Shown: piece after piece, positions 2,377 to 22,677 of the stretch | Position numbering within the stretch: position 1 is the first letter of the stretch | Layout of the letters: every line of letters starts with the position of its first letter | IMG/VR virus record: IMGVR_UViG_3300025769_000715 | Coordinates: 1 to 26,238 of that record | Source of the DNA: a virus | Reading direction: 5' to 3' (one strand) | Length of the DNA stretch: 26,238 nucleotides | Translations under genes and position numbers: made by a program | Notes under the pieces: model-generated | What the model saw: the letters and a program-made list of their open reading frames with translations, nothing else | The model's database searches: none | Told to the model about the DNA's origin: nothing

Positions 2377-3057
2377 TTATCTGCGCCTGCGAAGAATGAA
2401 TCTGCCCTTTGACCCATCGCCTACCCAAAGATCTCCACGAACTTTGAATATCTCAATCCTCTCGTTTGCATTCTGACGGTCGATGACAACCGACCAGGTC
2501 GATGATAAAGGGACATGGGTAAAGTAAAGTGTATTCTCAGCATCTCTTGCCTGACCATTTTGATTAAGGTTGACAACCACAATCTCAGAGCCATAGCGCA
2601 AGACATACGAGCCAGCCATCTCAGCCCGAACTTGTGGCATGACTTCAGTCCGATATGAGTCAGTTCCAAATACCTCTTCAGCCTTTCGCCTGTAAGCAGC
2701 ACCGCCTTGAAGTGAACTGATTTTCATGCCCTCGTATTCGCCCACTCTATCGAAGTAATCTTTGACCTTTTCATGTAGGTTTCTAATAAGCGCAGCAGAG
2801 TCAAGTACCTCAACCCTGACATAGTAATTACCAGCCTCCACATCTCCGATGGTGTCGATGAGTGTATACTGGTATGCATAGTAATTGGCCTGCATAAACG
2901 AGGTGTCAAATGTCATGGAATCACCTACCATGACAGTATCAATCACCATAACCGAATCAATGACAAGTGTGCTGTCTTTCTGGACTCCAAGGAGTGGATC
3001 ACTTTGGCCAAAGCAGATGACTGGAAGGAAAAGGATAAAAATAATTAAGTTTTTCAT
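2377..3057 (-). CDS. Secreted protein of unknown function
   Basis: Encodes 226 residues. A clear Sec signal peptide is present: Lys at position 3, a hydrophobic core (LIIFILFLPVICF) and a likely cut before Gln (FG|Q), as is common in Bacteroidetes. The Cys is not in a proper lipobox, so a soluble periplasmic or surface form is more likely than a lipoprotein. Residues 28-55 hold short repeats of D-S/T-V-M-V-x-D. A helical part (near LHEKVKDYFDRVGEYEG) and a beta-rich end with a basic RRRR terminus follow. It begins 2 bases after the stop of the giant fibre-like gene, so the two are almost certainly translated together. It may be a partner, chaperone or surface-attached component of that protein. 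No family recognised. Confidence 0.7.
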   Translation of the reverse strand: MKNLIIFILFLPVICFGQSDPLLGVQKDSTLVIDSVMVIDTVMVGDSMTFDTSFMQANYYAYQYTLIDTIGDVEAGNYYVRVEVLDSAALIRNLHEKVKDYFDRVGEYEGMKISSLQGGAAYRRKAEEVFGTDSYRTEVMPQVRAEMAGSYVLRYGSEIVVVNLNQNGQARDAENTLYFTHVPLSSTWSVVIDRQNANERIEIFKVRGDLWVGDGSKGRFILRRRR

Positions 3058-3059
3058 AG

Positions 3060-6000
3060 TTATTGATTTATGTTAGTGTATATAGTATTTCCATCTATTG
3101 TGTAAAGTTCTAATCTAAATCCGCTATCATCGCCAATTCGAAAAATTGTTATTGCATTTCCTAATTGACTTATCCATGTATAGTTAGAATCTAAATTAAC
3201 ATCAACTGCATTTCCATTTCCTGCAGCAAACAAACTAATCGTATATTCAGAAGCGTAGTTTGTATTATCTGTAAATACATTAGATATATTTAAAGTATAC
3301 CCATTAGTGAATGGTCCCGTTGGAGTTACGTTATGTATACCATGAGGCTGATTTCTCAAATCAACAGTTACTGTACCGCCTTCAGTTACTGTATAATTTG
3401 TATATAGAGGTCTTCTTTTATCTACATATTCGAATTCATTGTCTTCTGATATAGCAATTAGTTTATTTGAATTTGATTCATCAAGAATGTATTGTGTTGG
3501 ATTTTGGTCTTTAATGCAACGCAAAGAAAGGCCGTAAGTCCTAAAAAACGGCAACAAACCGGCATCACTTGCAGTAAAGCTAAGGTATCTACTATAATTA
3601 GTAGATACTGAGCTTGACCAGTATGCACCGCCCGAACCCAAATTAAAGGGGCTTCCAGAGCTAAAATACCTTCCTCCCGAATTTGGCAATTTTAGTGGAG
3701 ATAAAAATGCACCTGCACTATTGGTGCTTGACCAAGTAGATATTTCTGCATTTAATTCCGATTCAGTAGGCACCCTGTATCCTGTCGGACAAGGATTATT
3801 GATGCCATCTATACCTTGCCAAAGAGTGTCATTTTGTGTAGCAAGCCAATCATATGGGGAAAAAGACTCGGTAATAAATTTTCCATCCCATGTATTTCCT
3901 AAATTTGGCGCAGCAGTTGTCGCATTTGTAGATGTTGTTGCACTATTCCTGCATTGATGACCATCAGCGAATCTGCCCCATTGTAATGAATCTCCATATG
4001 CACTTGTATCGGTTGAAGAAATAGCTACTCTTGAAGCCCCAAGATTTCTATCCATCCAAACCCTGCCAGTTGTAGATGTCACAGATTTAATTTTTGTGAT
4101 ATCATTTGTATCACAATGCACATATCCGTCAGGATAATCAGAAACAACATAGCTAACAACAGCTGTATCTCCTCGAGTAATATTTTGAACAATATTGAAA
4201 TGTCTAAAATATATCGAATCGGTATCTGTATTATCAAGGTATTTTGATAGGTCAACATCTTCAATTACATCTGCAAGCACACCGGATCTATTTAGTGTAA
4301 TTCTCCAAGTGTCGTCATCTTCAGGGTCAAGCATTGTAATTGATTCCACATAGTTATTATTATCAACGGGTACTTTCCATGTACCATCCATGTTTAAATA
4401 ATAATCATCCGGTCTAACAACACCTATTGAATCAGGTACAAGACCTCTTGTAATTCCATCATATACATCAATAGTAACGTTAGAGCTATTTGTCAATGTT
4501 AATAATCCCGTATCCTGCGTCCAACCAAGTTGCTGGTCATCGGTGTTTACAGAAGATATATTAATTGGCTTCCACCCAAGTGTTGACTGGACAATCGTAT
4601 CATACACAAGGATTTGGTCAGGGCTCATCGTGTAGATGCTATTCGGATATTTTACAACCTCATTGCCTTGATTTGAGAGAAGCACATGAGTGGCATAGGA
4701 GGAAGCATTTACATCAAAGGTGGCCTCCCATGGCGTGTTTATTCCATCCCCTGTGACTTGCATGTAGTCTCCTGCATTCAAGGTTTGAAGCTCTGATGTG
4801 TCTGAACTCGTAATGTCAAGCGTGAAAAAGCCCGGGCTCGGTTCAGATAATGAAGTTGAGATATTGCCGACTCCGTTGAAAAACACAGTTCCATTTGAAA
4901 TCAAATCGGTATTTGCAGCATCGTCTCGTATCGTCCAAGCCTCATTTGTAGCACTTGCATCGGCATCATTCACATCGTCTGTAATGGTGACAGTCAAACC
5001 TCCGTTTGACAAAGTAATTTCATCATTTCCACTTGTGCCTGCTGACCAGCTCAAAGTCTGAATCTCATTGGTCACCGAGCTGTCCCCATCGAATACCTCA
5101 TCCGCAGGAAAGACTACGGAAAGCGGAGAACCGGCCGTACCATTTCCTGTCAGCGTTGTATCAGTCTGAACCACATCATCACCCCAATCATCACCAGGTA
5201 CATAGACCCCAAGCGTTCCATTTCCATCTGTCAAGTAAATTGTATCATTTACAAGACTCAAAGCTGAATTGTAGCCGGAGGTGTCGGTATTGTCAAGATA
5301 AACAGATAAGTCAACCCCAGAACCTCTATCAATCAGTAATGAATCACTCACAATGCTTAGGTTCTGCTCATCTGTATCTGGAATTAACCTAATTACATCT
5401 CCACGATTTTTGACTAAGATAGTACCAAGACTATCTACTAAAATGCTATCAGTATCTGTGTTGTCCAAATATGCAGAAATATCAATCCCTGTGCCGTTTG
5501 ATATCTTGATTGAATCGCCAACCAGACTCAAGTTCTGAAGCTCGTTTATAGTGCTTCCATCGACCTCAGTCTGTAGATACCTCCCATCAAGGTCTATGGT
5601 TTGGCTTGAGCCGTTTGTGATTCCGACAGTCAGGCTTCCTGTGCCTGTGTCGAATGTCAATCCATCAATGTCCTGTTCATCTAAATCATCAGCTGGTTTC
5701 CATGTCATCAAGGCATCGTTCCATTTTAGAACCTGTCCATCTGTTGCGTCTTGTTTTGCTAATTTTAGAATGCTTCCTGTTGTTCCATTGCCATCAAGTG
5801 TTGAATCTGATACAACCACTTGAGTTCCCCAATCATCAGTTTGAACCTCAAATGAGACATTAAAAGTATCATTCGGCGTTATAAATATGATGCTATCTGC
5901 AACGCTATAAATTGAGTCAAATACACTAACTGAAGTCAATGAACGCTTAAGTTGACCATCTGAAGTGATGTATACATTTGAACTGTTGTTTGTTGTTGCA

Positions 6001-9000
6001 TCATAGATTCCTTCGATGTATGTTTTATCGTGGTTAGAATTTCCGATTGTGATGCTGTTTGATCCGTTGCCAATTGCTTGGTCTCCAATCACTATCTGAT
6101 TAGATTGGCTATCAAGTTGAGGTCTCGAATCGTAGCCTATAAATATTGAATTATCTGAGTCTGTGTTGAGTAAAAAGTCACCTGTGTATCTGCCTGCTTG
6201 ATACCCAATGGCTATGTTATTATTCCCTGTTGTGTTGCTTACTAACCCAAGATGTCCGTTGGCAGTATTGTGACTTCCTGTTGTGTTATTACCTAGCGCA
6301 AAATATCCGTTGGCTGTGTTATTAATTCCTATTGTGTTTGTGTATAAAGAAAAATATCCATTTGCTACATTATTAGTTCCTGTTGTGTTGGATCGTAAGG
6401 CATAAAACCCATTTGCTACATTATTAACTCCTATTGTGTTACTGTATAATGCTTGATACCCATTGGCTATGTTATTATTCCCTGTTGTGTTACTGTATAA
6501 TGCCTGAACCCCTGTGGCTGTGTTATAATCTCCTGTTGTGTTACTGTATAATGCAAAAGATCCGTGGGCTGTGTTATTATTTCCTGTTGTGTTACTGCGT
6601 AATGTTTGATAGCCAGTGGCTGTGTTATTATTGCCTGTTGTGTTAAGGAATAATGCCTCACCGCCATTGGCTGTGTTTCTAAATCCTGTTGTGTTACTGT
6701 ATAATGCTGACACCCCGGTGGCTGTGTTAAAAGAACCTGTTGTGTTACTGTTTAGTGCGAAATTCCCGGTGGCTGTGTTCACAACCCCTGTTGTGTTACT
6801 GTATAATGCTCTATCCCCGATGGCTGTGTTAAAATACGCTGTTGTGTTGTTATAAAGTGCCTGATACCCATTGGCTGTGTTCTGATATCCCGTCTCGTTG
6901 TTGTATAATGCCATACTCCCGATAGCTGTGTTACGCGTGCCTGTTGTGTTGGTGTATAATGTCCTATATCCGGTGGCTGTATTAAACCCTGTTGTGTTAG
7001 CTGACCCTGCATCTGTCCCAATAAACACACTACCTGACCCATCATTCAAATCCAACTTCCCATCAATTTCCACATCCCCCACAACATCTAATTTTTCAGA
7101 TGGAACATCAGTCCCGATACCTACGTTACCTTGTAACCGTGTTGTAACTATTGATGAGTTACCAAGCACTGCGGTATTACTACCTAAACCTCTTGCTCCT
7201 GAACCTATTACGATTTGGTTGGTTTCAATGTCTGCATTTGGTCTTGAATCGTAGCCTATAAATACGGAATTGTTTGGAAGTGTGTTGTTTGCACCTGTAC
7301 TTGTTAGATATCCTGCTTGATATCCGTTGGCTGTGTTAAAATTACCTGTTGTGTTACTGTATAATGCCCACACCCCGTTGGCTGTGTTAAAATTACCTGT
7401 TGTGTTACTGTTTAGTGCTTGATATCCGTTGGCTGTGTTAGCATATCCTGTTGTGTTGTTGCGTAATGCTTGAAAGCCATTTGCTGTGTTTTGATATCCT
7501 GTTGTGTTGTTGAATAATGCCTGATACCCATTGGCTGTGTTAGCATATCCTGTTGTGTTATTGTATAATGCGTAAACCCCGGTGGCTGTGTTAAGAGTAC
7601 CTGTTGTGTTTCTCAATAATGCATGAAACCCGTTGGCTGTGTTAAAATTTCCTGTTGTGTTAAGGTATAATGCTTGATACCCATTGGCTGTGTTATAACT
7701 TCCTGTTGTGTTACTGTATAATGCTTGAAGCCCATTGGCTGTGTTATAATTTCCTGTTGTGTTACTGTATAATACATGAAACCCGTTGGCTGTGTTTTCA
7801 AATCCTGTTGTGTTACTGTATAATGCTTTAGTCCCGGTGGCTGTGTTAAGAGTACCTGTTGTGTTTGACCGTAATGCCTGATAGCCAACCCCAACATTTT
7901 GATTATTACTTCCATCATCATTTAACCCTGCATCTGTTCCAACGAACACGCTATTCCCACCATCATTCAAATCAATCTTCCCATCAATCTTCACATCCCC
8001 AACCACATCCAAAACCTGAGAAGGACTTGCAGTCCCAATCCCCACCCGATTGTTTTCCCCGTCTATTAAGAGGGTTGAATTATCGAATGAAAGTTGTTCT
8101 GTGATTCCTATTTCTTTGACAAGTGCGTTGAGGGAGTCGTTGCGATTATCATAGATTCCATTAGGTGCGCCTAATTGTTTTATGCAGCGGACGGGGTTGC
8201 CGTTGGCCCGGGCCCCGTAAATCAAGTCAACATCGGTGCTGTAGATGCGCAGGATGCCGGCAAGAGACCCCGAGACTGAGCTTGACCAGTAGTAGCCGTA
8301 AGACCCGACATTTAAGAAGTCACCGGAGCTGCGTAGGCGGTTGCCCGAAGCTGTCAATTTGAGTGGCGAATTAAATGCTCCTACACTTGTATTTGGACTA
8401 AAAGTATTATCCTCTGCTTGCCATTCTGATTGAGTTGGTAATCTATACCCACTTGGACAAGGATTGTTTATCCCATTAACTCCTTGCCAAAGATTGTCAT
8501 TTTGTGGATCAAGCCAATCATTAGGAGATACGCCTTCGGTTATAAATAGAGAATCCCATGCGCCTCCTGTAAATGGTTCAGCCGTTGTCGCATTAACAGA
8601 AGTGGTATCTGAATCTCGACATTGATGCCCGTCTGCGAATCGGCCCCACTGAAATAAATCTCCATACGAATTGGCATCAGTTGAGGAAGTTGCGACTTGA
8701 CTCGCTCCAAGGTTCCTATCCATCCACACAGCCCCTGTGGTTGAAACTACTGGATTTACTTTAGTTGGTTCTGCACAATGCACGTAACCATCTGGATAAA
8801 TTCCCTCGTTGCTAATTAAAATGGTATCCCCTCTTTGAATATTTTTTATGTCTCCATAATAATTTATGTAAAACGAATCAATATCTGTGTAGGTTGACTC
8901 CATCAATCTTCCATCTGCCGTGATATGCACATTTGGTGCGCTGCCTGTTGTTTGGCCTTTGATTCCTTCAATGAAGGTGGAATCGTGGTCTGCATTTCCT

Positions 9001-12000
9001 ATTTTGATACTGTTTGACCCTTCGCCTCTTCCTTCGTAGCCGATGACTATTTGATTTGTTTCAATATCTGCATTTGGTCTTGCGTCGTAACCAATGAATA
9101 CGGAATTGTTTGGAAGTGTGTTTTCTGCACCTGTACTTGTGTATCTACCTGCTATATTTCCGGTGGCTATGTTATTATTACCTGTTGTGTTACTGAGTAA
9201 TGCTAAATATCCGGTGGCTATGTTATTATTACCTGTTGTGTTGTTGCGTAATGCTTGCCTACCGTTGGCTGTGTTAAAATTACCTGTTGTGTTACCGAAT
9301 AATGCAAAATATCCGTTGGCTGTGTTAGAACCCCCTGTTGTGTTGTTGCTTAATGCAAAATATCCGTTGGCTGTGTTATAAATTCCTGTTGTGTTACTGC
9401 GTAATGCCTGATATCCGGTGGCTGTGTTCTGATATCCTGTTGTGTTATTCCTTAATGCTTCATAGCCAACGCCCACATTCCTATTATCACTCCCATAATC
9501 ATTTAACCCTGCGTCATCTCCAATAAAAACACTCTGACCCCCATCATTCAAATCAATCTTCCCATCAATCTTCACATCCCCAACCACATCTAACACCTCA
9601 GAAGGACTCGCAGTACCAATTCCCACCCGATTGTTTTCTCCGTCGATTACGAGGGTTGAATTGTCGAAGGACAGCTGTTCTGTGATTCCTATTTCTTTGA
9701 CAGTTGCGTCAAGTGAATCGTTTCTGTTGTCGTAGATTCCGTTAAGGTCGAATTCGCTGTATTCTTTGATGCAACGCACAGGGAGCCCGTTGGCCCGGTT
9801 GGTGGAGCTCAAGGCGGCAATGCTGCTGTCATAGTACAGGATGCGGGAAAGAGACCCCGAGACTGAGCTCGAACTGTAAAAGCCGTTTGACCCGATACTG
9901 CTAGGGGCCCCGGAGCCGCTCAAGCGGTAGCCCGCAACTGGCACTTTCAAAGGTGAAGCAAATGCATCTGCACTATTATTAGATGGCCAAGTTGATCTTT
10001 CAGCATTTAACTCAGTTTCAGTCGGAATCCGATATCCACCAGGGCAGGGATTATTCACTCCACTCACCCCTTGCCAAAGATTGTCATCTTGCGGAACAAG
10101 CCAGTCATTCGGAGAACTTGGCTCAACAATAAACTTTCCATCCCAAGTATTCCCAGCATTTGGAACAGCTGTTGTCGCATTCACAGAAGTTGTATCTGAA
10201 TCCCTGCATTGATGCCCATCTGCAAATCGTCCCCATTGGTATAAATCACCATAAGAATTTGCATCATTAAAAGCAGTTGCCACTTGACTTGCTCCAAGGT
10301 TCCTGTCCATCCATACAGCTCCTGTGGTTGAAGTTACTGGATTGACAACTGTTGGTGTTCCGCAATGGACATAACCATCGGGATAAATGCCCTCACTACT
10401 GATATAAAAAGTATCCCCCTGAGCGACCCTTGTGGTCACTCCGTAATAGTTGATGTAAAAGGAGTCGATGTTTGCATCTAAAATAAAGCCTCCATTCTTC
10501 GACAGATAAACCGTATCATTCGACTTTGAAATCACTTGAATCTCATTGAGTGAATCCGCATCATCATCAATGACTGAATCTGCTTTTGTCACCCAATAGC
10601 CAAGAAGCGAATCGTAGGAGATGAGGCTTCCATCCGTAGGAGATGAGACATCTACGTCATGAAGGTCTCTGAGAGATTCGCCTGTTTTGACTCGCACCGC
10701 AAGGGTTCCGTTAGCAGAAGAATCAACTACAAAAGCAATAGGCAATTTCTGATATCCGTTTGATGGCTCTGCGGTTACCCAATCGCCTGCCACGGTTGGT
10801 GAGACATAAAGGACTTGGCCTGTGTTATAGGCTGTAAGGTCTATTTGGCGGATCTTACCTTGATGCATGACGTAGCCCTCGGTTCCATTTGGAATGTCAT
10901 GAGCAGCAACACCGAGCAGATAGTTCGGGTCTGTGTTTCCGTCTGCAAGATATTTCTCAATTAAGAACTTTCCTGAGTTGCCTGTTGCCCCGACAGCCAT
11001 GACTACCTCACCCTTTTCAATTAGGTCACCCGATTGGTTGACTGTCATCCAGTATTGATCCTGACCGATTTGAATGAGTTGGTCACCAAGCCCACCAAAG
11101 ACAAGATACCCCAAAGTTTCATCCCAATTGAGTTCAGCCTCATCGGGGCCTGCCTCGTTATTATTAAATGTGATTGAATCAGTCGGAAGCACAAAGCCGC
11201 CCACACTGTCTGGATCATAGACTGCTAAGCGAGTTGTACCATCCACCAAGATGAGGGAGTCACCTACTTTTGTGAAGCTTTGATTGTAGCCTGAGGTGTC
11301 TGTGTTGTCAAGGTAAGGTGACAAATCAACTTTTAGGTTTCCTATCCCATCAGTCAGGTTGAGGCTGTCATTTTGGATATAAAAGGTAAGGTTATAACCT
11401 GACGTATCAGCTCTATCTGTCGGGCTATACCCTGACAAATCAACTGAGGCAGATGCGCCATTTGAAATATAAACCGTGAGCAAGTTGTTCAATAAGACAA
11501 CTGAATCAATATCTTGTAATTCATTAGTAACTGATGAATCTCCATCAAAGACTAAATCTTCAGGAAGTAACACTTTCAACGTAGTATCTGCATCAGCCAA
11601 AAATAATGTATCATTGGTAATACTCAATGATTGGTTACGTCCTGATGTGTCTATTGCAGAAAATGCAAATCCTCCGGTATTGTCATTATATGTAATTACA
11701 ATATTCGTATGATCTCCATTACTTAATGCAGTACCAACAACATCTTCAACAGCCTCTTCATTTAATTGGAAATAAATATCATTGTCAATAACAACAGGAC
11801 GAATAGCAGTTGTATCATCTGCATCGTATAAATATCCTGCTTTGAAAGAATTTATAATTGTGTCTGTTGTAGTAAATCCTGATGGTTCTTTGATACAGCG
11901 AACTGAATAACCTAAACTTTTATAAAAAGAACCAATAGTAGCATTACTATTTTGAATAACTAAATAACTAACATCATTAGGCCATGAAGTTGAGCTAGAC

Positions 12001-13205
12001 CAATAATAACCAAAAGATTCAGTAGTTAGTATTGCTCCAGAACTATAAAAACGTTGACCTGCAAGTGTTAACTTTAAAGGAGACTCAAAGGCACCTACAC
12101 TATTATTACTGTTCCAAGATAATCTTTCTTCATTCCATTCAGTTTCTGTAGGCAGTCTATAACCTGATGGACAAGGGTTGTTAATCCCATCTACACCTTG
12201 CCATAAATTATCATTTTGGGAAGTTAACCAATCGTTTGAACCAAAAATAAAAAGACTATCCCAAACACCGCCTGTAAATGGTTCTGCTGTTGTTGCTACT
12301 GTTGTAGTTGTTCCACTTGTTCTACATTGGTGTCCATCTCCAAATCTACCCCATTGGTAAAGGTCTCCATAAGCTGCTGTATCTGTAGATGATGTGGCTT
12401 TTTGTGAAGCTCCTAAGTTACGATCCATCCATGTGCGTCCTGTAACAGGGTTAATAACATCTACAATTTCTGTTGGGCTATTACAATTTACAATGCCTGG
12501 AGGTGGTACAGGAGCAAAAGCTGCTAAAAAGATAGTGTCTCCTTGTTGGATATATACAACACTATCTGCTCCAAAGTATACATAGAAGGAATCTATGTTC
12601 CCATCTTGGGTTATTGTAAATTTGTTTCCATCTAATTGTACAGCATCACCAACAATAAACATGCTATCTTCAGTAATTAACCGAACTGTAGTATCATTAT
12701 CAGAGATGTACATAGAGAATGTACCTGCATAGATGGAATCTATTTGGTTTTCAATATCAACAAATTTGTTTTCAATAGAACTTGCAAGTTTAGCAGAAAT
12801 ACATTGATTTAATGGATCACTTACATTTGCAATCCAATGAGTCAATCCACTTTCAGATAATCTTACCAACACACCAATACCTTGAGCAGGTATACCTTGA
12901 GATAATCTGTCAGTTACTGTAACTACTAATTGACCTGCAAATTGGTCAATAATATTAGTAACTATATATTCGTTACAATCATCTCCATAGCTAACAGAAT
13001 TAGTGTACAATACATCATTAAGTTGTACATCATTTCCATTATAAGTGTTGTATGGATGATTGATACTAAAGCTTACATTGTAAGTAGAATCACTTGTAGT
13101 TACAATACTAGTTACATCTACTCTCCATCCTGGGTATAATTCCACAGTTTGAGAGTAAGAATATAAGCTAAATAATAAGAATAATATGCTAATAAATATT
13201 CTCAT
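3060..13205 (-). CDS. Giant fibre-like adhesin with four FISUMP domains and three solenoid repeat arrays
   Basis: Encodes 3381 residues. Order: signal peptide (1-18, cut before Gln-Thr); N-terminal beta domain; FISUMP domain A (about 239-442); fibre repeats of the kind LSNDTLYLxDGxGTL and a host-fibre-like segment (MAVGATGNSGK); FISUMP B (about 946-1147); repeat array 1; FISUMP C (about 1472-1679); array 2; array 3; more fibre repeats; FISUMP D (about 3027-3236); a C-terminal beta tip. FISUMP (Fibrobacter succinogenes major paralogous domain, PF09603) is seen from WMDRNLGAS, YGDLxQWGR, NPCPxGYRxPTExE and SxRCIK; it has a C-type-lectin-like fold. The likely role is receptor binding. The start overlaps the previous stop as ATGA. 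The signal peptide is odd for a virion fibre. Domains B and C carry hypervariable segments. Base composition changes along the gene. A secreted host-surface adhesin encoded by the phage is the main alternative. Confidence 0.85.
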   Translation of the reverse strand: MRIFISILFLLFSLYSYSQTVELYPGWRVDVTSIVTTSDSTYNVSFSINHPYNTYNGNDVQLNDVLYTNSVSYGDDCNEYIVTNIIDQFAGQLVVTVTDRLSQGIPAQGIGVLVRLSESGLTHWIANVSDPLNQCISAKLASSIENKFVDIENQIDSIYAGTFSMYISDNDTTVRLITEDSMFIVGDAVQLDGNKFTITQDGNIDSFYVYFGADSVVYIQQGDTIFLAAFAPVPPPGIVNCNSPTEIVDVINPVTGRTWMDRNLGASQKATSSTDTAAYGDLYQWGRFGDGHQCRTSGTTTTVATTAEPFTGGVWDSLFIFGSNDWLTSQNDNLWQGVDGINNPCPSGYRLPTETEWNEERLSWNSNNSVGAFESPLKLTLAGQRFYSSGAILTTESFGYYWSSSTSWPNDVSYLVIQNSNATIGSFYKSLGYSVRCIKEPSGFTTTDTIINSFKAGYLYDADDTTAIRPVVIDNDIYFQLNEEAVEDVVGTALSNGDHTNIVITYNDNTGGFAFSAIDTSGRNQSLSITNDTLFLADADTTLKVLLPEDLVFDGDSSVTNELQDIDSVVLLNNLLTVYISNGASASVDLSGYSPTDRADTSGYNLTFYIQNDSLNLTDGIGNLKVDLSPYLDNTDTSGYNQSFTKVGDSLILVDGTTRLAVYDPDSVGGFVLPTDSITFNNNEAGPDEAELNWDETLGYLVFGGLGDQLIQIGQDQYWMTVNQSGDLIEKGEVVMAVGATGNSGKFLIEKYLADGNTDPNYLLGVAAHDIPNGTEGYVMHQGKIRQIDLTAYNTGQVLYVSPTVAGDWVTAEPSNGYQKLPIAFVVDSSANGTLAVRVKTGESLRDLHDVDVSSPTDGSLISYDSLLGYWVTKADSVIDDDADSLNEIQVISKSNDTVYLSKNGGFILDANIDSFYINYYGVTTRVAQGDTFYISSEGIYPDGYVHCGTPTVVNPVTSTTGAVWMDRNLGASQVATAFNDANSYGDLYQWGRFADGHQCRDSDTTSVNATTAVPNAGNTWDGKFIVEPSSPNDWLVPQDDNLWQGVSGVNNPCPGGYRIPTETELNAERSTWPSNNSADAFASPLKVPVAGYRLSGSGAPSSIGSNGFYSSSSVSGSLSRILYYDSSIAALSSTNRANGLPVRCIKEYSEFDLNGIYDNRNDSLDATVKEIGITEQLSFDNSTLVIDGENNRVGIGTASPSEVLDVVGDVKIDGKIDLNDGGQSVFIGDDAGLNDYGSDNRNVGVGYEALRNNTTGYQNTATGYQALRSNTTGIYNTANGYFALSNNTTGGSNTANGYFALFGNTTGNFNTANGRQALRNNTTGNNNIATGYLALLSNTTGNNNIATGNIAGRYTSTGAENTLPNNSVFIGYDARPNADIETNQIVIGYEGRGEGSNSIKIGNADHDSTFIEGIKGQTTGSAPNVHITADGRLMESTYTDIDSFYINYYGDIKNIQRGDTILISNEGIYPDGYVHCAEPTKVNPVVSTTGAVWMDRNLGASQVATSSTDANSYGDLFQWGRFADGHQCRDSDTTSVNATTAEPFTGGAWDSLFITEGVSPNDWLDPQNDNLWQGVNGINNPCPSGYRLPTQSEWQAEDNTFSPNTSVGAFNSPLKLTASGNRLRSSGDFLNVGSYGYYWSSSVSGSLAGILRIYSTDVDLIYGARANGNPVRCIKQLGAPNGIYDNRNDSLNALVKEIGITEQLSFDNSTLLIDGENNRVGIGTASPSQVLDVVGDVKIDGKIDLNDGGNSVFVGTDAGLNDDGSNNQNVGVGYQALRSNTTGTLNTATGTKALYSNTTGFENTANGFHVLYSNTTGNYNTANGLQALYSNTTGSYNTANGYQALYLNTTGNFNTANGFHALLRNTTGTLNTATGVYALYNNTTGYANTANGYQALFNNTTGYQNTANGFQALRNNTTGYANTANGYQALNSNTTGNFNTANGVWALYSNTTGNFNTANGYQAGYLTSTGANNTLPNNSVFIGYDSRPNADIETNQIVIGSGARGLGSNTAVLGNSSIVTTRLQGNVGIGTDVPSEKLDVVGDVEIDGKLDLNDGSGSVFIGTDAGSANTTGFNTATGYRTLYTNTTGTRNTAIGSMALYNNETGYQNTANGYQALYNNTTAYFNTAIGDRALYSNTTGVVNTATGNFALNSNTTGSFNTATGVSALYSNTTGFRNTANGGEALFLNTTGNNNTATGYQTLRSNTTGNNNTAHGSFALYSNTTGDYNTATGVQALYSNTTGNNNIANGYQALYSNTIGVNNVANGFYALRSNTTGTNNVANGYFSLYTNTIGINNTANGYFALGNNTTGSHNTANGHLGLVSNTTGNNNIAIGYQAGRYTGDFLLNTDSDNSIFIGYDSRPQLDSQSNQIVIGDQAIGNGSNSITIGNSNHDKTYIEGIYDATTNNSSNVYITSDGQLKRSLTSVSVFDSIYSVADSIIFITPNDTFNVSFEVQTDDWGTQVVVSDSTLDGNGTTGSILKLAKQDATDGQVLKWNDALMTWKPADDLDEQDIDGLTFDTGTGSLTVGITNGSSQTIDLDGRYLQTEVDGSTINELQNLSLVGDSIKISNGTGIDISAYLDNTDTDSILVDSLGTILVKNRGDVIRLIPDTDEQNLSIVSDSLLIDRGSGVDLSVYLDNTDTSGYNSALSLVNDTIYLTDGNGTLGVYVPGDDWGDDVVQTDTTLTGNGTAGSPLSVVFPADEVFDGDSSVTNEIQTLSWSAGTSGNDEITLSNGGLTVTITDDVNDADASATNEAWTIRDDAANTDLISNGTVFFNGVGNISTSLSEPSPGFFTLDITSSDTSELQTLNAGDYMQVTGDGINTPWEATFDVNASSYATHVLLSNQGNEVVKYPNSIYTMSPDQILVYDTIVQSTLGWKPINISSVNTDDQQLGWTQDTGLLTLTNSSNVTIDVYDGITRGLVPDSIGVVRPDDYYLNMDGTWKVPVDNNNYVESITMLDPEDDDTWRITLNRSGVLADVIEDVDLSKYLDNTDTDSIYFRHFNIVQNITRGDTAVVSYVVSDYPDGYVHCDTNDITKIKSVTSTTGRVWMDRNLGASRVAISSTDTSAYGDSLQWGRFADGHQCRNSATTSTNATTAAPNLGNTWDGKFITESFSPYDWLATQNDTLWQGIDGINNPCPTGYRVPTESELNAEISTWSSTNSAGAFLSPLKLPNSGGRYFSSGSPFNLGSGGAYWSSSVSTNYSRYLSFTASDAGLLPFFRTYGLSLRCIKDQNPTQYILDESNSNKLIAISEDNEFEYVDKRRPLYTNYTVTEGGTVTVDLRNQPHGIHNVTPTGPFTNGYTLNISNVFTDNTNYASEYTISLFAAGNGNAVDVNLDSNYTWISQLGNAITIFRIGDDSGFRLELYTIDGNTIYTNINQ
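3500..4125 (-). other. FISUMP domain D (C-terminal copy)
   Basis: This copy has the framework WMDRNLGASR, YGDSLQWGRFADGHQC, NPCPTGYRVPTESE and LRCIK. It lies in AT-rich DNA and its binding-face segment does not share the conserved bases of copies B and C, apart from the short WSSSV core. It is therefore probably fixed, or fed by another template. Confidence 0.75.
6178..7000 (-). repeat. Solenoid repeat array 3, about 16 units of 51 bp
   Basis: Tandem 17-residue units follow the pattern NTTGxxNTANGYxALYS. The first unit is one residue short, and the last runs into TGDF and a closing NSIFIGYDSRP...NQIVIG segment like that in YadA-type and Bacteroidetes fibre proteins. The Asn/Thr/Gly ladder predicts a beta-solenoid rod. 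The DNA repeats can expand or shrink by recombination. Confidence 0.92.
7291..7899 (-). repeat. Solenoid repeat array 2, about 12 units of 51 bp
   Basis: Same 17-residue unit as the other arrays, from NVGVGYQALRS to NTANGYQAGYLTSTG. It follows FISUMP C and a linker (SFDNSTLLIDGENNRVGIG), and is followed by NNSVFIGYDSRPNAD. It forms a rod between binding domains. Confidence 0.92.
7900..8170 (-). repeat. Duplicated linker module after FISUMP C
   Basis: The segment NGIYDNRNDSL...VKEIGITEQLSFDNSTL...VGIGTASPS...DGKIDLNDGG occurs here and again at about 9480-9765 after FISUMP B with few differences. A third, shorter relative lies at 7010-7130. Together with FISUMP and the solenoid array it forms a duplicated cassette. 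Confidence 0.85.
8170..8790 (-). other. FISUMP domain C
   Basis: The framework is nearly identical in protein to copy B (WMDRNLGASQVAT, YGDLFQWGRFADGHQCRDS, NPCPSGYRLPTQSEW, VRCIK) but differs from it at many silent bases, so the duplication is not recent. It carries the variable segment at 8187-8345. Confidence 0.85.
8187..8345 (-). other. Putative DGR variable region in FISUMP C
   Basis: This is the C-terminal binding face of FISUMP C (about residues 1621-1673, SSGDFLNVG to ARANGNPVRC). By hand count GC is about 57% over 8161-8340 against about 38% at 8401-8460. It shares exact blocks with the equivalent part of FISUMP B (21 bp at 8262-8282; 12 bp at 8200-8211), while other codons differ in amino acid. 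This pattern is expected of template-fed mutagenic retrohoming. Confidence 0.6.
9131..9474 (-). repeat. Solenoid repeat array 1, about 7 units of 51 bp
   Basis: The shortest of the three arrays, from NVGVGYEALRN to IATGNIAGRYTSTG, in the same 17-residue register. It is followed by NNSVFIGYDARPNAD and IEGIKGQTTGSAPNVHI, the closing segment shared in part with array 3. Confidence 0.9.
9480..9765 (-). repeat. Duplicated linker module after FISUMP B
   Basis: A copy of the linker at 7900-8170, in the same order relative to FISUMP and the repeat array. This shows that the FISUMP-linker-array cassette was duplicated as a unit. Confidence 0.85.
9765..10375 (-). other. FISUMP domain B
   Basis: Framework motifs are WMDRNLGASQVAT, YGDLYQWGRFADGHQC, NPCPGGYRIPTETE and VRCIK. 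It pairs with copy C, and the binding-face segment is hypervariable (9775-9945). Confidence 0.85.
9775..9945 (-). other. Putative DGR variable region in FISUMP B
   Basis: This is the C-terminal binding face of FISUMP B (about residues 1088-1144, SGSGAPSSIG to RANGLPVRC). Hand-counted GC is 60% over 9781-9960 against 35% at 9961-10020. Blocks at 9849-9869 and 9787-9798 are identical to 8262-8282 and 8200-8211 in copy C. Between the copies, 18 of 46 aligned codons are identical and 23 of the 28 that differ change the amino acid. Confidence 0.6.
11875..12490 (-). other. FISUMP domain A (N-terminal copy)
   Basis: Framework motifs are WMDRNLGASQKAT, YGDLYQWGRFGDGHQC, NPCPSGYRLPTETEW and VRCIKE. 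The domain lies wholly in AT-rich DNA and lacks the GC-rich blocks of copies B and C, so it looks like a fixed copy. Confidence 0.8.
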
Positions 13206-14173
13206 GGTATAAATTTGAGGTCAAATGCGGGTTGTGCAAAAAAGGTTTTAGCATCTTGAATTATGTATCCTATTTTAGTTCTGGTAGTAGACCCTGTTTC
13301 TACTTCGTATATACCTGTAACAACATTTTGGATAAAGTAATTAGGGCTGTTTTCAGTTGGGACATTAGACCAATTTGCATCATGGACAGTTACTTGTAAT
13401 GTAGGAACATACGCTGCATAATCTGCATAAAGCCATTTGTCTAAGTATATTATTTCAACTAGTAAGTCATTGTTTGCAGTATAAATATCTGCATAAGGTA
13501 CTATTTTAATAGACAGTAATCTTGACCCTTCAGGTACTACAATTTGTACTTTATCTCCTACATATTGTGTTGTTAGATTAGCATTGGGTCCCCATATCCA
13601 CCAAAAGAAATCACTATTATCAGTTCCATAATGCAACTGGTTTCCTCCTGATGAAGACAGTATATTTAATAGACTACCTTCTTTGTCTACATAATATACT
13701 AATTCAGGATTATCAGCTGTACCATAGAAGATAAAAGCATCTTCATAGTTATTAGCTGTTACTAGATTTGCAAAATCAGATAACTGTGGGTCACCTGATA
13801 CTGCTAAATCATCATCTGTAAGTTCTACAACTAAGCTTGCTTTGTCAATCCAAGTACGAGTGCCATTTGGATTTGTACCATATACTTGATATGGCAATGG
13901 TGTTTCAACATCATTTGTAAGCTGTATAAAGTTAGAATCAACTTCTACAGAATATCTAACCTTGGAATCAAGATACCCTGTAGTAGGGTCTGTAGAAGAA
14001 GACTTTACCCTTTCATCACCAAAAGTGCTGCCGGGGAGATCTGCAAGAAGATCTGATAGTTTTGCCCACCAGATTTTTTTATCTTGAAAATCTCCCCCTC
14101 CAGCAACTATATTATCAGGTATATCTTCATCTTTCTTGATTACTGAAGTTCTAATACGCCATTCAGTAGCCAT
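13202..14173 (-). CDS. Structural protein, fibre- or baseplate-like
   Basis: Encodes 323 residues. The segment VKSSSTDPTTGYLDSKV resembles the trunk repeat seen in many phage tail fibres (KxxxxDTTPGYLxxKL). The rest is beta-rich with many aromatic residues (FFWWIWG near residue 189) and no signal peptide or membrane span. It starts 16 bases after the previous stop and overlaps the giant gene as ATGA, so it is probably made together with it. It may be the adaptor that holds the giant fibre on the virion. No precise family recognised. Confidence 0.6.
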   Translation of the reverse strand: MATEWRIRTSVIKKDEDIPDNIVAGGGDFQDKKIWWAKLSDLLADLPGSTFGDERVKSSSTDPTTGYLDSKVRYSVEVDSNFIQLTNDVETPLPYQVYGTNPNGTRTWIDKASLVVELTDDDLAVSGDPQLSDFANLVTANNYEDAFIFYGTADNPELVYYVDKEGSLLNILSSSGGNQLHYGTDNSDFFWWIWGPNANLTTQYVGDKVQIVVPEGSRLLSIKIVPYADIYTANNDLLVEIIYLDKWLYADYAAYVPTLQVTVHDANWSNVPTENSPNYFIQNVVTGIYEVETGSTTRTKIGYIIQDAKTFFAQPAFDLKFIP

Positions 14174-19075: not shown

Positions 19076-20158
19076 TTAGTCTGCAAATTCAATATCATTC
19101 AAAGATTTAACTTTAGTACCAAAACCCTTATCTGACCCAGAAAGATTCCCTGTACCTCTAAAATAATTCATTAAATTCTCTTTTGTTTCTTTCACACCGT
19201 CTGAAACTGAGGACTTTTTATAGTTATCTAAATTAAATGTACCATCTTCAGGATTAAAATAAGACATAAAATCTAACAGCTGAACTAAGCCTCTTGGATG
19301 ATTATAAATGCTTTCAATTTTATTTTTAAAACCACCTTGTGCAAGTTCATTATAAACAATTTGCTTACGCTTATCCATCCATCCAGTTTCATTAATTGCT
19401 TCTACAAAACCCTTTTGAAACTCTTCAATGTTACGTTCAGCTTGTGCTCTTTCTTCTTTAACCTTGTTAACCTCTTTTTCTAAGTCCTTGGTTTTTAAAG
19501 ATAAATCCTTTTTAAAGGCAGCTAAAGCTTTTTTCTTAAGTGTGCCTTTATCCTTATATAACTCAATAATCTCTTCAATCGTTTCTTCATCATCTCCTTG
19601 TTCCATAAGTTGCTTTGTCAAATAATCTTCAGCAACAGACTCATCATTAAAACTTTCTTCAGTCAAATCTACATTTGCTGCTTCAGCACGATCAATAATT
19701 TTTCTAAATTCATCTGGAGTAAGATCATTCCCTTTTGTAACAACATATTCCAATACCTTAGAAGTAACAGGGTTTGGAGAATTTACAATAGCTTGCAAAA
19801 TAGCTTCTTGTGATTGCTGAAGTTTTGTTGCATTTTCATGCTCTAATATTTGAGCTAGTTGATCATAACTACCATCAAAATCTTCATACTCATTTGCAAT
19901 AAAACCCTTGTCTCGATAAAACTGATACAATCCTGATGCTTCACCGTCTGCAGGCTTAGAGCGTTTTGTAGTTTGTTTTGGTTCTTCATCTTCTTCTTGA
20001 GAATCAGGTTCATCATCAGGTTCTTCATCACTAAATTGATTTTGAAATTCTGAAGCAGAAGGTTTTCCTAGAATGTCTTCTTTTTTTTCATTGGTGGTTT
20101 CATCACCTTTGATTTCATCATCTATAAAGTCAAAATCTGGTAATACTAAATCTTCCAT
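19076..20158 (-). CDS. Scaffold-like capsid assembly protein
   Basis: Encodes 360 residues. A very acidic N-terminus (DEEPDDEPDSQEEDEEP near residue 44) is followed by a helical middle with a strong coiled coil (about 215-255: LKKKALAAFKKDLSL through KEERAQAERNIEEF) and a Gly/Ser-rich end. Acidic start, long coiled coil and position between portal and capsid genes are typical of scaffolds. Such proteins guide shell assembly and leave or are cut before DNA entry. No protease domain is seen here or in neighbours. Confidence 0.7.
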   Translation of the reverse strand: MEDLVLPDFDFIDDEIKGDETTNEKKEDILGKPSASEFQNQFSDEEPDDEPDSQEEDEEPKQTTKRSKPADGEASGLYQFYRDKGFIANEYEDFDGSYDQLAQILEHENATKLQQSQEAILQAIVNSPNPVTSKVLEYVVTKGNDLTPDEFRKIIDRAEAANVDLTEESFNDESVAEDYLTKQLMEQGDDEETIEEIIELYKDKGTLKKKALAAFKKDLSLKTKDLEKEVNKVKEERAQAERNIEEFQKGFVEAINETGWMDKRKQIVYNELAQGGFKNKIESIYNHPRGLVQLLDFMSYFNPEDGTFNLDNYKKSSVSDGVKETKENLMNYFRGTGNLSGSDKGFGTKVKSLNDIEFAD

Positions 20159-20178
20159 AGTTCTTGTTGTTTAATAAA

Positions 20179-22677
20179 TTAAGAAGGTCTTTGACCTTGT
20201 TGTTGTTTCATATTAGTTTCTCTTTCTTTTCTATTTTGTTCGCGTTCTTTGATGTTCATATCTTGAATTGTTTTAGCAGCTTCAAGTTCTCTTGGAACAT
20301 CATCATTATCACTGTCTTTATCTATCATATATTTCTGAAGATCCATTGCTTTAATTTCTTTATCAATTTCTCCTTTAACCATAATCTTATTAATCTCAAC
20401 TTGTTCTTTCTTCTGCTCAGCTTGCATCATTGCTTGTTGTTGCTGTTGTTGCATTTGCTCCATTCTTTGCTGCTGCTCATTAGAAGCCATAGTTATCTTC
20501 TTGTGTATTTTTTCAGGAGACTCTTTTTTAATTATAGACAAAAACAAATTAGAAAGTGTTTCCATTCCCTGTCCAGCATTTTGAGCAAATGCATGAGCAG
20601 ATTGTAACATATACTTTCTGTACTCTTCATTGTTTGTTTCATCTCCTATAAACACTCCAATATCTTCATGATCTAATATATCAGGAGTAATCTTTAGTAC
20701 TTTCTTTACTCCTTCAGATGATACATAGTTTAGAAAATGTTCTTTTCTATTAGGATGTTTTCTAAAGAAGTCAGTATAATACATTCTAAACTGACGAAGA
20801 TATTCATTTATTAAATCTTTCATTATTTCATTAAACTCAATAAAATAACTTTCAGACATAGTATATCCCTGCTGTACAGCCATTTGATTATCAGAAGCAT
20901 TACTGTTTGGTTCAATAACACCTTCTGCTTGTGGTGGTACAAGCATTTGCATTCCAATCTCTCTATCTAATAATTCAAGGAACTGTTGCATTTGTATAAT
21001 CTCACCAAATGCACCTGCCATTTCAGGTCTGACAACAGCACCACTATTGTAATTAGGCATTAAGCCTTCAGTTCTTGATTGAAGTGCATAACCAAGACTT
21101 CTTCTCAAGTACATGAACATTGCAATCTTATCAATACCTTCATACAGAGGTTCACCATTTTCATCAGTATGTAAATACTCAGGAATCATATCAACTGATA
21201 TGTTCTTAATAAATCCTTCGTATTTAGATATTTCTTTTGTTTGAAGAGCTTTTACTGCAAAGTATTGGAACTGAGTATTTAGTGCTCTTTCTACTAATGA
21301 AATTGGTTGTGAGTTAAGATTGGAAATAAACCTACCATTGATACCTAATGTAAAATCACCAAATGGATCTCCTGTAAATAATGGCTGATAAGGACATTCT
21401 CTAAAATTCCAAATCAATCTGCTACCATATCTTGTTACTTCATACCTGCGAGGAACCCATAATTTCTCAGCAAAACAAGCATTATTGTACTCATCTAAAT
21501 ATTCGTACCGAGTGCTTTTTTGACCATAATCATTTGTAATTCTTGTCTTGGTAGCATCAGCTGGTGGTTTAAAATTAGAAGGTGCTACTTCTGTAATTTC
21601 CTCACCATAATCATCAGTTCGTGTAATAAACCAAACTTGACGATATGCTTTAAATTGCAAGTATGTTTTCCAAGTAAGTGTTTCACTATTAAATCTGCGA
21701 TTTGTCATAGAACCCATACCGTGTCCTACTTCTCTGTCATCCGCATAATGCATTGTAGCTGATGCTAATAGCTCAGATCTTTCAGCTTTTGCATCAGGTC
21801 CAGGTTCATGATGTTTGTTTGCTCTGTTGTTAGATGAGCCAGTAAAAGTAACGAGTTGTTCTATTTCTTCAGGACTTACTTCATTTCCTATTTCATTATA
21901 GACATCTGCTAATGTAATAGGTACTTTAATCCAAAAGTAATCTGCATTCTTAACATCAAATACATCAGGAGATTTGTGAAATCCTACATGTAAATTATTA
22001 GTAACAATAGGTTTAGGTTGACCATTTACTTCTACAATACCTACAAACGTACCATCTGTAGCCATTAAATGTTTAAATGCAGTATCTTTAATTTTCCTCC
22101 AATTAAACTTCCACTTAAAATACTGAATGACATCATTATAAAATTGTTCTGCTTCACTTTTATAATGTGTTCCTACTAATTGCTCAGGTTCTGGTTGTGT
22201 TCTTTGTTTAGCAATATATTGTTCTACATCTTCTTTAGGTACACCTTGTTGTTGAAGTTGAGCTCCTTCAATGTTTAAATTAATCATTTCATTGATGCTG
22301 TTGTAAAGCATATTCTCAAGCTCAGCATCTTTTATTTTATTCTCTCTGTCAGAGAGTACCATTGCCTCAATATTATCTCCGCGTTTATGCATCTCTCCAA
22401 CTTGATACATATACTTAGAGTATATTCTATTGTAAGGTATTAAGTTTTCTGGTTCTTCATCTGGAAGTTGCATATGAATAGGAACTTGGGAACAAAATTC
22501 CTCCATATGCTCTTTAAACCTTGTTAAATCATTATTGAGAATATCATAACACCGTTTCATACGCTCATACTGATAAGACACAGTTTGATCGTATGGAATA
22601 ATGTCATTAATTATTTCCTCATACCATTTCTCATTTTTTTGAGAATCAGGTATTCTAAGTCTTATATCTGCTCGCAT
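20179..22677 (-). CDS. Portal protein
   Basis: Encodes 832 residues, the size of the large portals of crAss-like and some podovirus groups. It overlaps the TerL gene by 23 bp and precedes the scaffold candidate. Mostly helical: conserved-looking parts include an N-terminal helical wing, a central part with FGDFTLGINGRFISNLNSQPISLVERALN and helices such as RSLGYALQSRTEG, and a C-terminal Gln-rich coil (about residues 745-775, EQQQRMEQMQQQQQQ) that fits a barrel or crown. A portal forms the twelve-subunit DNA gate at one capsid vertex and docks TerL. The assignment rests on size, position and overall layout. Confidence 0.78.
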   Translation of the reverse strand: MRADIRLRIPDSQKNEKWYEEIINDIIPYDQTVSYQYERMKRCYDILNNDLTRFKEHMEEFCSQVPIHMQLPDEEPENLIPYNRIYSKYMYQVGEMHKRGDNIEAMVLSDRENKIKDAELENMLYNSINEMINLNIEGAQLQQQGVPKEDVEQYIAKQRTQPEPEQLVGTHYKSEAEQFYNDVIQYFKWKFNWRKIKDTAFKHLMATDGTFVGIVEVNGQPKPIVTNNLHVGFHKSPDVFDVKNADYFWIKVPITLADVYNEIGNEVSPEEIEQLVTFTGSSNNRANKHHEPGPDAKAERSELLASATMHYADDREVGHGMGSMTNRRFNSETLTWKTYLQFKAYRQVWFITRTDDYGEEITEVAPSNFKPPADATKTRITNDYGQKSTRYEYLDEYNNACFAEKLWVPRRYEVTRYGSRLIWNFRECPYQPLFTGDPFGDFTLGINGRFISNLNSQPISLVERALNTQFQYFAVKALQTKEISKYEGFIKNISVDMIPEYLHTDENGEPLYEGIDKIAMFMYLRRSLGYALQSRTEGLMPNYNSGAVVRPEMAGAFGEIIQMQQFLELLDREIGMQMLVPPQAEGVIEPNSNASDNQMAVQQGYTMSESYFIEFNEIMKDLINEYLRQFRMYYTDFFRKHPNRKEHFLNYVSSEGVKKVLKITPDILDHEDIGVFIGDETNNEEYRKYMLQSAHAFAQNAGQGMETLSNLFLSIIKKESPEKIHKKITMASNEQQQRMEQMQQQQQQAMMQAEQKKEQVEINKIMVKGEIDKEIKAMDLQKYMIDKDSDNDDVPRELEAAKTIQDMNIKEREQNRKERETNMKQQQGQRPS

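Follow-up and report, generated by a model that had tools for sequence, protein, structure and literature searches.

Two FISUMP domains of a giant phage tail-type protein carry segments resembling variable regions of diversity-generating retroelements

The IMG/VR virus record IMGVR_UViG_3300025769_000715, analysed here over its whole length of 26,238 bases (the window), comes from an incomplete phage and encodes the terminase, portal and major head protein of a tailed phage, as assigned by PHROGs. It also encodes a giant protein of 3381 residues that matches virion structural and tail spike families of PHROGs and contains four FISUMP domains, two of which, domain 2 (copy B) and domain 3 (copy C), end in segments resembling the variable regions of a diversity-generating retroelement (DGR). 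L001, another IMG/VR contig from this phage, is 99.99% identical to the window across 14.7 kb and adds ~7.8 kb, giving ~34 kb of known sequence for this phage from two records that are both fragments. The best annotated relatives of the terminase are found in Cellulophaga phage phi14:2 (26% identity, 100 kb), in addition to an uncultured gut phage (101 kb) and Flavobacterium phages (~90 kb); should the phage match these in size, the window would represent about one quarter of its genome. The giant gene and its FISUMP domains are arranged as follows, where wobble GC denotes the GC fraction at third codon positions.

3060..13205, minus strand: gene of the 3381-residue tail-type protein, containing four FISUMP domains together with arrays of a 51-bp repeat (open reading frame, domain and repeat analysis)
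11889..12428, minus strand: FISUMP domain 1, without a GC-rich tract; PF09603 above the cut-off; wobble GC 0.19 in the framework and 0.09 in the segment
9765..10310, minus strand: FISUMP domain 2 (copy B); TIGR02145 E value 4e-5, below the cut-off
8178..8723, minus strand: FISUMP domain 3 (copy C); TIGR02145 E value 1.2e-7, below the cut-off
3510..4055, minus strand: FISUMP domain 4, without a clear GC-rich tract; wobble GC 0.23 in the framework and 0.38 in the segment

Domain 1 exceeds the curated cut-off of PF09603 (36.6 versus 33.9 bits), whereas the profile scores of B and C (TIGR02145/PF09603) are significant though below it; the whole 3381-residue protein matches PF09603 with an E value of 4.9e-6, also under the curated cut-off. 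Membership of B in the family is supported by its 55-64% identity to bacterial FISUMP domains. A scan of a genome collection returned hundreds of FISUMP relatives of B, mainly from Bacteroidota, and no relative was found either for C in a single-domain protein scan of viral contigs or for B among annotated phages. The structure of C was predicted with a pLDDT (predicted local distance difference test) of 84, an earlier model built from 13 sequences being unusable (pLDDT 38). The best PDB match of the model is the C-terminal domain of Legionella Lcl (E value 0.12, probability 0.82), followed by several C-type-lectin-like proteins at lower ranks, all of them non-significant.

A previous reading of the letters alone (the sequence-only reading) had proposed that B and C carry variable regions fed by one template. 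Its gap-free alignment of the two segments holds at an offset of 1587 bp, as do the exact blocks of 21 bp (8262-8282/9849-9869) and 12 bp (8200-8211/9787-9798), and its codon counts in the register 8187-8324 (18 identical, 28 different, 23 of them changing the amino acid) shift slightly to 17, 29 and 22. Over the last 56 codons, B and C differ at 51 bases, distributed as 18/16/17 over codon positions 1/2/3; these fall in 34 codons, nine of which are synonymous. By contrast, the frameworks of the two domains have 106 differing bases distributed as 24/22/60, with 36 of the 69 differing codons synonymous, so that the third-position share of the differences differs between segment and framework (p=0.007). 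The third base C is retained in 15 of the 25 codons that change the amino acid. Within the last eight codons, one residue differs against five wobble changes, which resembles ordinary drift. In retrohoming of the Bordetella phage BPP-1, the extreme 3' end of the target is not replaced, which would explain such a pattern. For the core of 48 codons, the share of third-position differences (12 of 44) is indistinguishable from that of DGR target pairs (35 of 174, p=0.31), in a comparison that is descriptive because the split was picked after the data were seen. The segments and their landmarks are the following.

9765..9938, minus strand: variable-region-like tract of B, ~58 codons (wobble-GC change point; homology to the template and variable regions of the bacterial loci L047 and L075)
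8178..8351, minus strand: variable-region-like tract of C, ~58 codons (same evidence)
9849..9869, minus strand: 21-bp block in B, identical in C
8262..8282, minus strand: 21-bp block in C, identical in B
9765..9788, minus strand: last eight codons of B, protein nearly fixed; possibly the end at which homing would initiate
8178..8201, minus strand: last eight codons of C, protein nearly fixed; possibly the corresponding end
8160..8175, minus strand: weak inverted repeat with 6-bp arms, ATTAGG-CGCA-CCTAAT, immediately following C; not significant and with no counterpart after B

Among the fetched FISUMP loci, two possess a DGR reverse transcriptase (RT), namely L047 of Balneolaceae ANBcel3 and L075 of the Bacteroidetes metagenome-assembled genome Ki3-D1. 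Both are complete, comprising RT, Avd, template and FISUMP target.

L047, in this order: FISUMP target (variable region 2165-2347), RT 2942-4159, Avd 4117-4488, template 4608-4790
L075, 10455-10638 and 11393-11579: internal and terminal variable regions of one 792-residue gene
L075, downstream of the target gene: RT, Avd and template (13919-14105)

The templates and targets of L047 and L075 align with B and C across the same 56-58 codons, and the templates translate to asparagine-rich versions of the window segments. In both loci, as in B and C, it is the C-terminal segment of a FISUMP domain that varies, and at the same codons; moreover, a single gene of L075 has two variable regions, as the window gene does, and one of the two in L075 is internal. 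Over six template-target pairs of the two loci, 151 of the 177 differences lie at template adenines, two pairs being adenine-only. In L075, the terminal variable region differs exclusively at template adenines (22/22), and the internal one fits the template more poorly, with 10 of 31 differences elsewhere. In bacteria, DGRs thus target the C-terminal segment of FISUMP domains. In a comparison of 90 FISUMP faces, variability concentrates on the codons that are asparagine in the template (3.30 versus 1.09 bits, p=1e-9), and the residue differences between B and C follow the same codons, occurring at 14 of 18 template-asparagine codons and at 11 of the 38 remaining ones (p=7e-4). Their base differences associate with template adenines at p=0.004 for L047 and p=0.07 for L075, which are related templates and not the phage's own. 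The statement in the sequence-only reading that FISUMP domains are DGR targets is thus borne out by both loci and by published work, in which Fib_succ_major/DUF1566 proteins are DGR targets in human microbiomes (PMC4159848) and the Bacuni phages of Bacteroides uniformis carry a Fib_succ_major-type target, one cassette feeding two targets (PMC8143477). B and C are therefore a further instance of a target class already described, phages included. Compared to those systems, B and C both reside within one gene, and the cassette is not in the sequence known. They differ from L047 and L075 in that RT, Avd and template adjoin the target in both loci and none was seen in the window, and in that their targets are bacterial proteins, compared to a phage tail-type gene of 3381 residues here.

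Base composition sets the two segments apart from the domains that contain them. The tracts have a GC content of 57-59%, close to the 57-60% previously stated; the framework is at 43-44%, the previously given 35-38% applying to the nearest flank only. Wobble GC is 0.75-0.77 in the tracts of B and C against 0.25-0.26 in their own framework, and the change point detected in each of them lies at codon 125/126 of the domain (log-likelihood ratio 21 each, compared to maxima of 8.4 and 12.4 in 100 shuffles), whereas the change point of domain 4 stays within its shuffles. The start of the tract coincides in both copies with the template boundary of the related DGRs, and the jump is the largest among 131 FISUMP domains compared. 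A rise in wobble GC is also seen in DGR-linked FISUMP targets in low-GC contexts (+0.26 and +0.28 in L075). A tract that begins at the template boundary within a low-GC framework is the expected trace of retrohoming from a GC-rich template, and it is mainly on this ground that we prefer retrohoming to ordinary selection. Over the 131 domains, most of them in loci L004-L081, the C-terminal variable segment averages +0.14 in wobble GC over the framework; FISUMP-targeting DGRs may therefore have GC-rich templates in general.

Diversifying selection together with recombination among paralogous FISUMP domains could in principle have altered the binding face with no DGR involved, in keeping with the excess of amino-acid over silent changes on the variable face. 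Other kinds of change do occur in this protein: the variable face of domain 1 (window 11900-12054) has been replaced relative to that of a related contig (L092:9070-9241), with flanks 95% and 81% identical, no DNA alignment between the faces and different lengths, which indicates an exchange otherwise than by substitution-only retrohoming. We consider this explanation unlikely for B and C, as selection accounts neither for wobble-GC tracts that start at the template boundary in B as well as in C nor for the third-position C in 15 amino-acid-changing codon pairs, and import of a whole domain would not leave such a tract and would have shifted the composition of the framework as well.

We therefore favour, at a probability of roughly 0.78, the reading of B and C as DGR-type variable regions that would have been overwritten by mutagenic complementary DNA (cDNA) of a GC-rich template, with machinery most likely borne by the phage. 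It is directly supported by the homology to targets of complete DGRs, the template-like tract with the right boundary and the concentration of differences at template-asparagine codons; retrohoming as the writer, the location of the machinery, any continued function and binding to host receptors are what we infer from the sequence. As proposed, the template would be GC-rich and have AAY codons wherever the target varies; its mutagenic cDNA copies would overwrite, in place, the ~58 codons for the C-terminal face in each of FISUMP domains 2 and 3. The outcome would be two independently variable faces on one phage tail-type protein, presumably binding host receptors. The RT and the template are most likely located in the portion of the phage genome that was not sequenced, although the host or another element may provide them in trans.

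Several results weigh against this reading. No RT was found in the window, L001 or related contigs except two distant ones, and the only template-like copies in the records examined are B and C themselves. A search for both, suggested by the sequence-only reading, thus found neither in the ~34 kb of the phage, which refutes nothing since the records are fragments. In addition, third positions hold 17 of the 51 base differences between B and C, and clean DGR pairs have fewer (borderline, p=0.06). Reconstruction of a single template varied at adenines only would call for an in-frame TAA besides several AAA codons, which is implausible, so that a contribution from drift or from two related templates is needed. 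Some of the wobble differences, especially in the last eight codons, are better read in one of these two ways. Of the earlier proposal, the variable regions gain support from homology, the asparagine codons and the tract boundary, and a single template for both copies gains no such support. Finally, both regions are internal to the gene, and a canonical hairpin is absent after B, where the best perfect stem has 3 bp; the stem after C has 6 bp, contains AT pairs and falls short of the canonical form, and stems of at least 6 bp occur in ~5% of random 60-mers from the loci. The downstream hairpin was also rejected as a mark of FISUMP targets in general, as the bacterial family shows no excess over random; it is thus not diagnostic for this group. 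No Avd was noticed in the window, where no search aimed at it was made. Avd is not present in all DGRs.

The internal position and the missing canonical hairpin make former activity a serious possibility. B and C might have been written earlier, either in this phage or in ancestors of it, and be static now, subject to later drift and selection, a view to which we give somewhat less than even odds. The share of third positions among the B/C differences, the ~34 kb without RT or template, and the poorer fit of the internal compared to the terminal region of L075 (10/31 non-adenine against 22/22 at adenines) are in line with it. Against it, the 48-codon core retains the codon-position pattern of DGR pairs, the composition of the tract has not faded towards that of the framework, and the records are fragments.

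It appears improbable that a DGR located in the bacterial host or in another element diversifies the targets in trans. The closest FISUMP relatives are bacterial, six of the 35 genomes with a FISUMP relative strongly match the RT of L047 (its own genome included), and the composition of the tract is unlike that of the phage framework. However, GC-rich tracts also accompany a DGR in cis (L075), the phage has no known host, and the block patterns of B and C have no match among the bacterial loci examined. It seems doubtful, to about the same degree, that one DGR, possibly supplied in trans, feeds several faces in one giant tail-type protein through internal targets lacking an end-of-gene hairpin.

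Viral sequences were likewise searched for a source. Neither the exact 21-bp block nor the 3'-end pattern has a match in viral contigs, and a looser pattern gave two matches, both to one unrelated sequence and not a template. Among 80 viral DGR loci identified by RT alignment, the templates belong to the same general asparagine-rich class, none being close to B or C, and no FISUMP domain was detected at an E value of 1e-4.

The mechanism for B and C is proposed by analogy with BPP-1, in which adenine-directed rewriting diversifies the receptor-binding protein mtd. In phage DGRs, a GC-rich hairpin of 7-10 bp with a loop of 4 nt follows the variable region (PMC3240598); BPP-1 requires it right after its terminal variable region (PMC3240598), whereas B has none and C a weak one only. 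Surveyed DGR targets lie at C-termini, probably since cis elements lie downstream (PMC8144416), which makes the internal position of the B and C tracts unusual, although phage targets with a variable repeat near the 5' end exist (PMC10743442) and one region of L075 is internal as well. DGRs have been reported for Crassvirales (PMC12386605), tailed phages distantly related to this one by terminase or portal, in which variation is likewise adenine-directed. Those crAss-like phages have one C-terminal lectin-like domain per tail fibre (PMC12386605), compared to two tracts in the window gene.

Another distant relative, IMGVR_UViG_3300035498_000179 (G050; portal 22% identical), contains a DGR at 58132-59537, with a template at 58432-58522 and a variable region at 58132-58222 that differ at 20 positions, all of them template adenines. 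DGRs thus occur in this broad phage group. Its target is not a FISUMP protein by the searches made, and its variation is adenine-directed, as proposed for B and C. The RT of G050, which also occurs in IMGVR_UViG_3300035499_000062, has the motif PIGNYLSQ and one in-frame TAG, which suggests amber recoding. A distant relative of 102 kb carries a tRNA with a CTA anticodon (L109:6262-6339, called tRNA-Pyl by ARAGORN), possibly an amber suppressor.

The giant gene also contains more than 25 copies of a degenerate 51-bp (17-residue) repeat, TNTTGNxNTANGYQALxxN, in arrays at 6154-7980 and 9109-9561, and contig assemblies of its relatives break close to it. By eye, the N-terminus of its product (start 13205, minus strand) resembles a signal peptide, MRIFISILFLLFSLYSYSQ, which is retained in the related contig L003 and has a similar counterpart in L092 (L092:7171); the product of the downstream gene (2377-3057, minus strand) opens in the same manner, MKNLIIFILFLPVICFGQ. 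Such starts are odd for virion proteins. Elsewhere, near the start of the gene that follows the portal (window 19953-20320), the related contigs L002 and L003, otherwise 91-94% identical to the window, do not align, so this stretch is divergent or replaced.

If the favoured reading is true, two faces of a single tail-type protein are varied by this distant relative of the crAss-like phages, with targets that sit within the gene and not at its end, the position to which cis elements are believed to restrict them. At the template boundary, the step in wobble GC might serve as a simple, template-free mark of candidate orphan DGR targets, and might be suited to fragmented viral contigs in which the enzyme and the template are missing.
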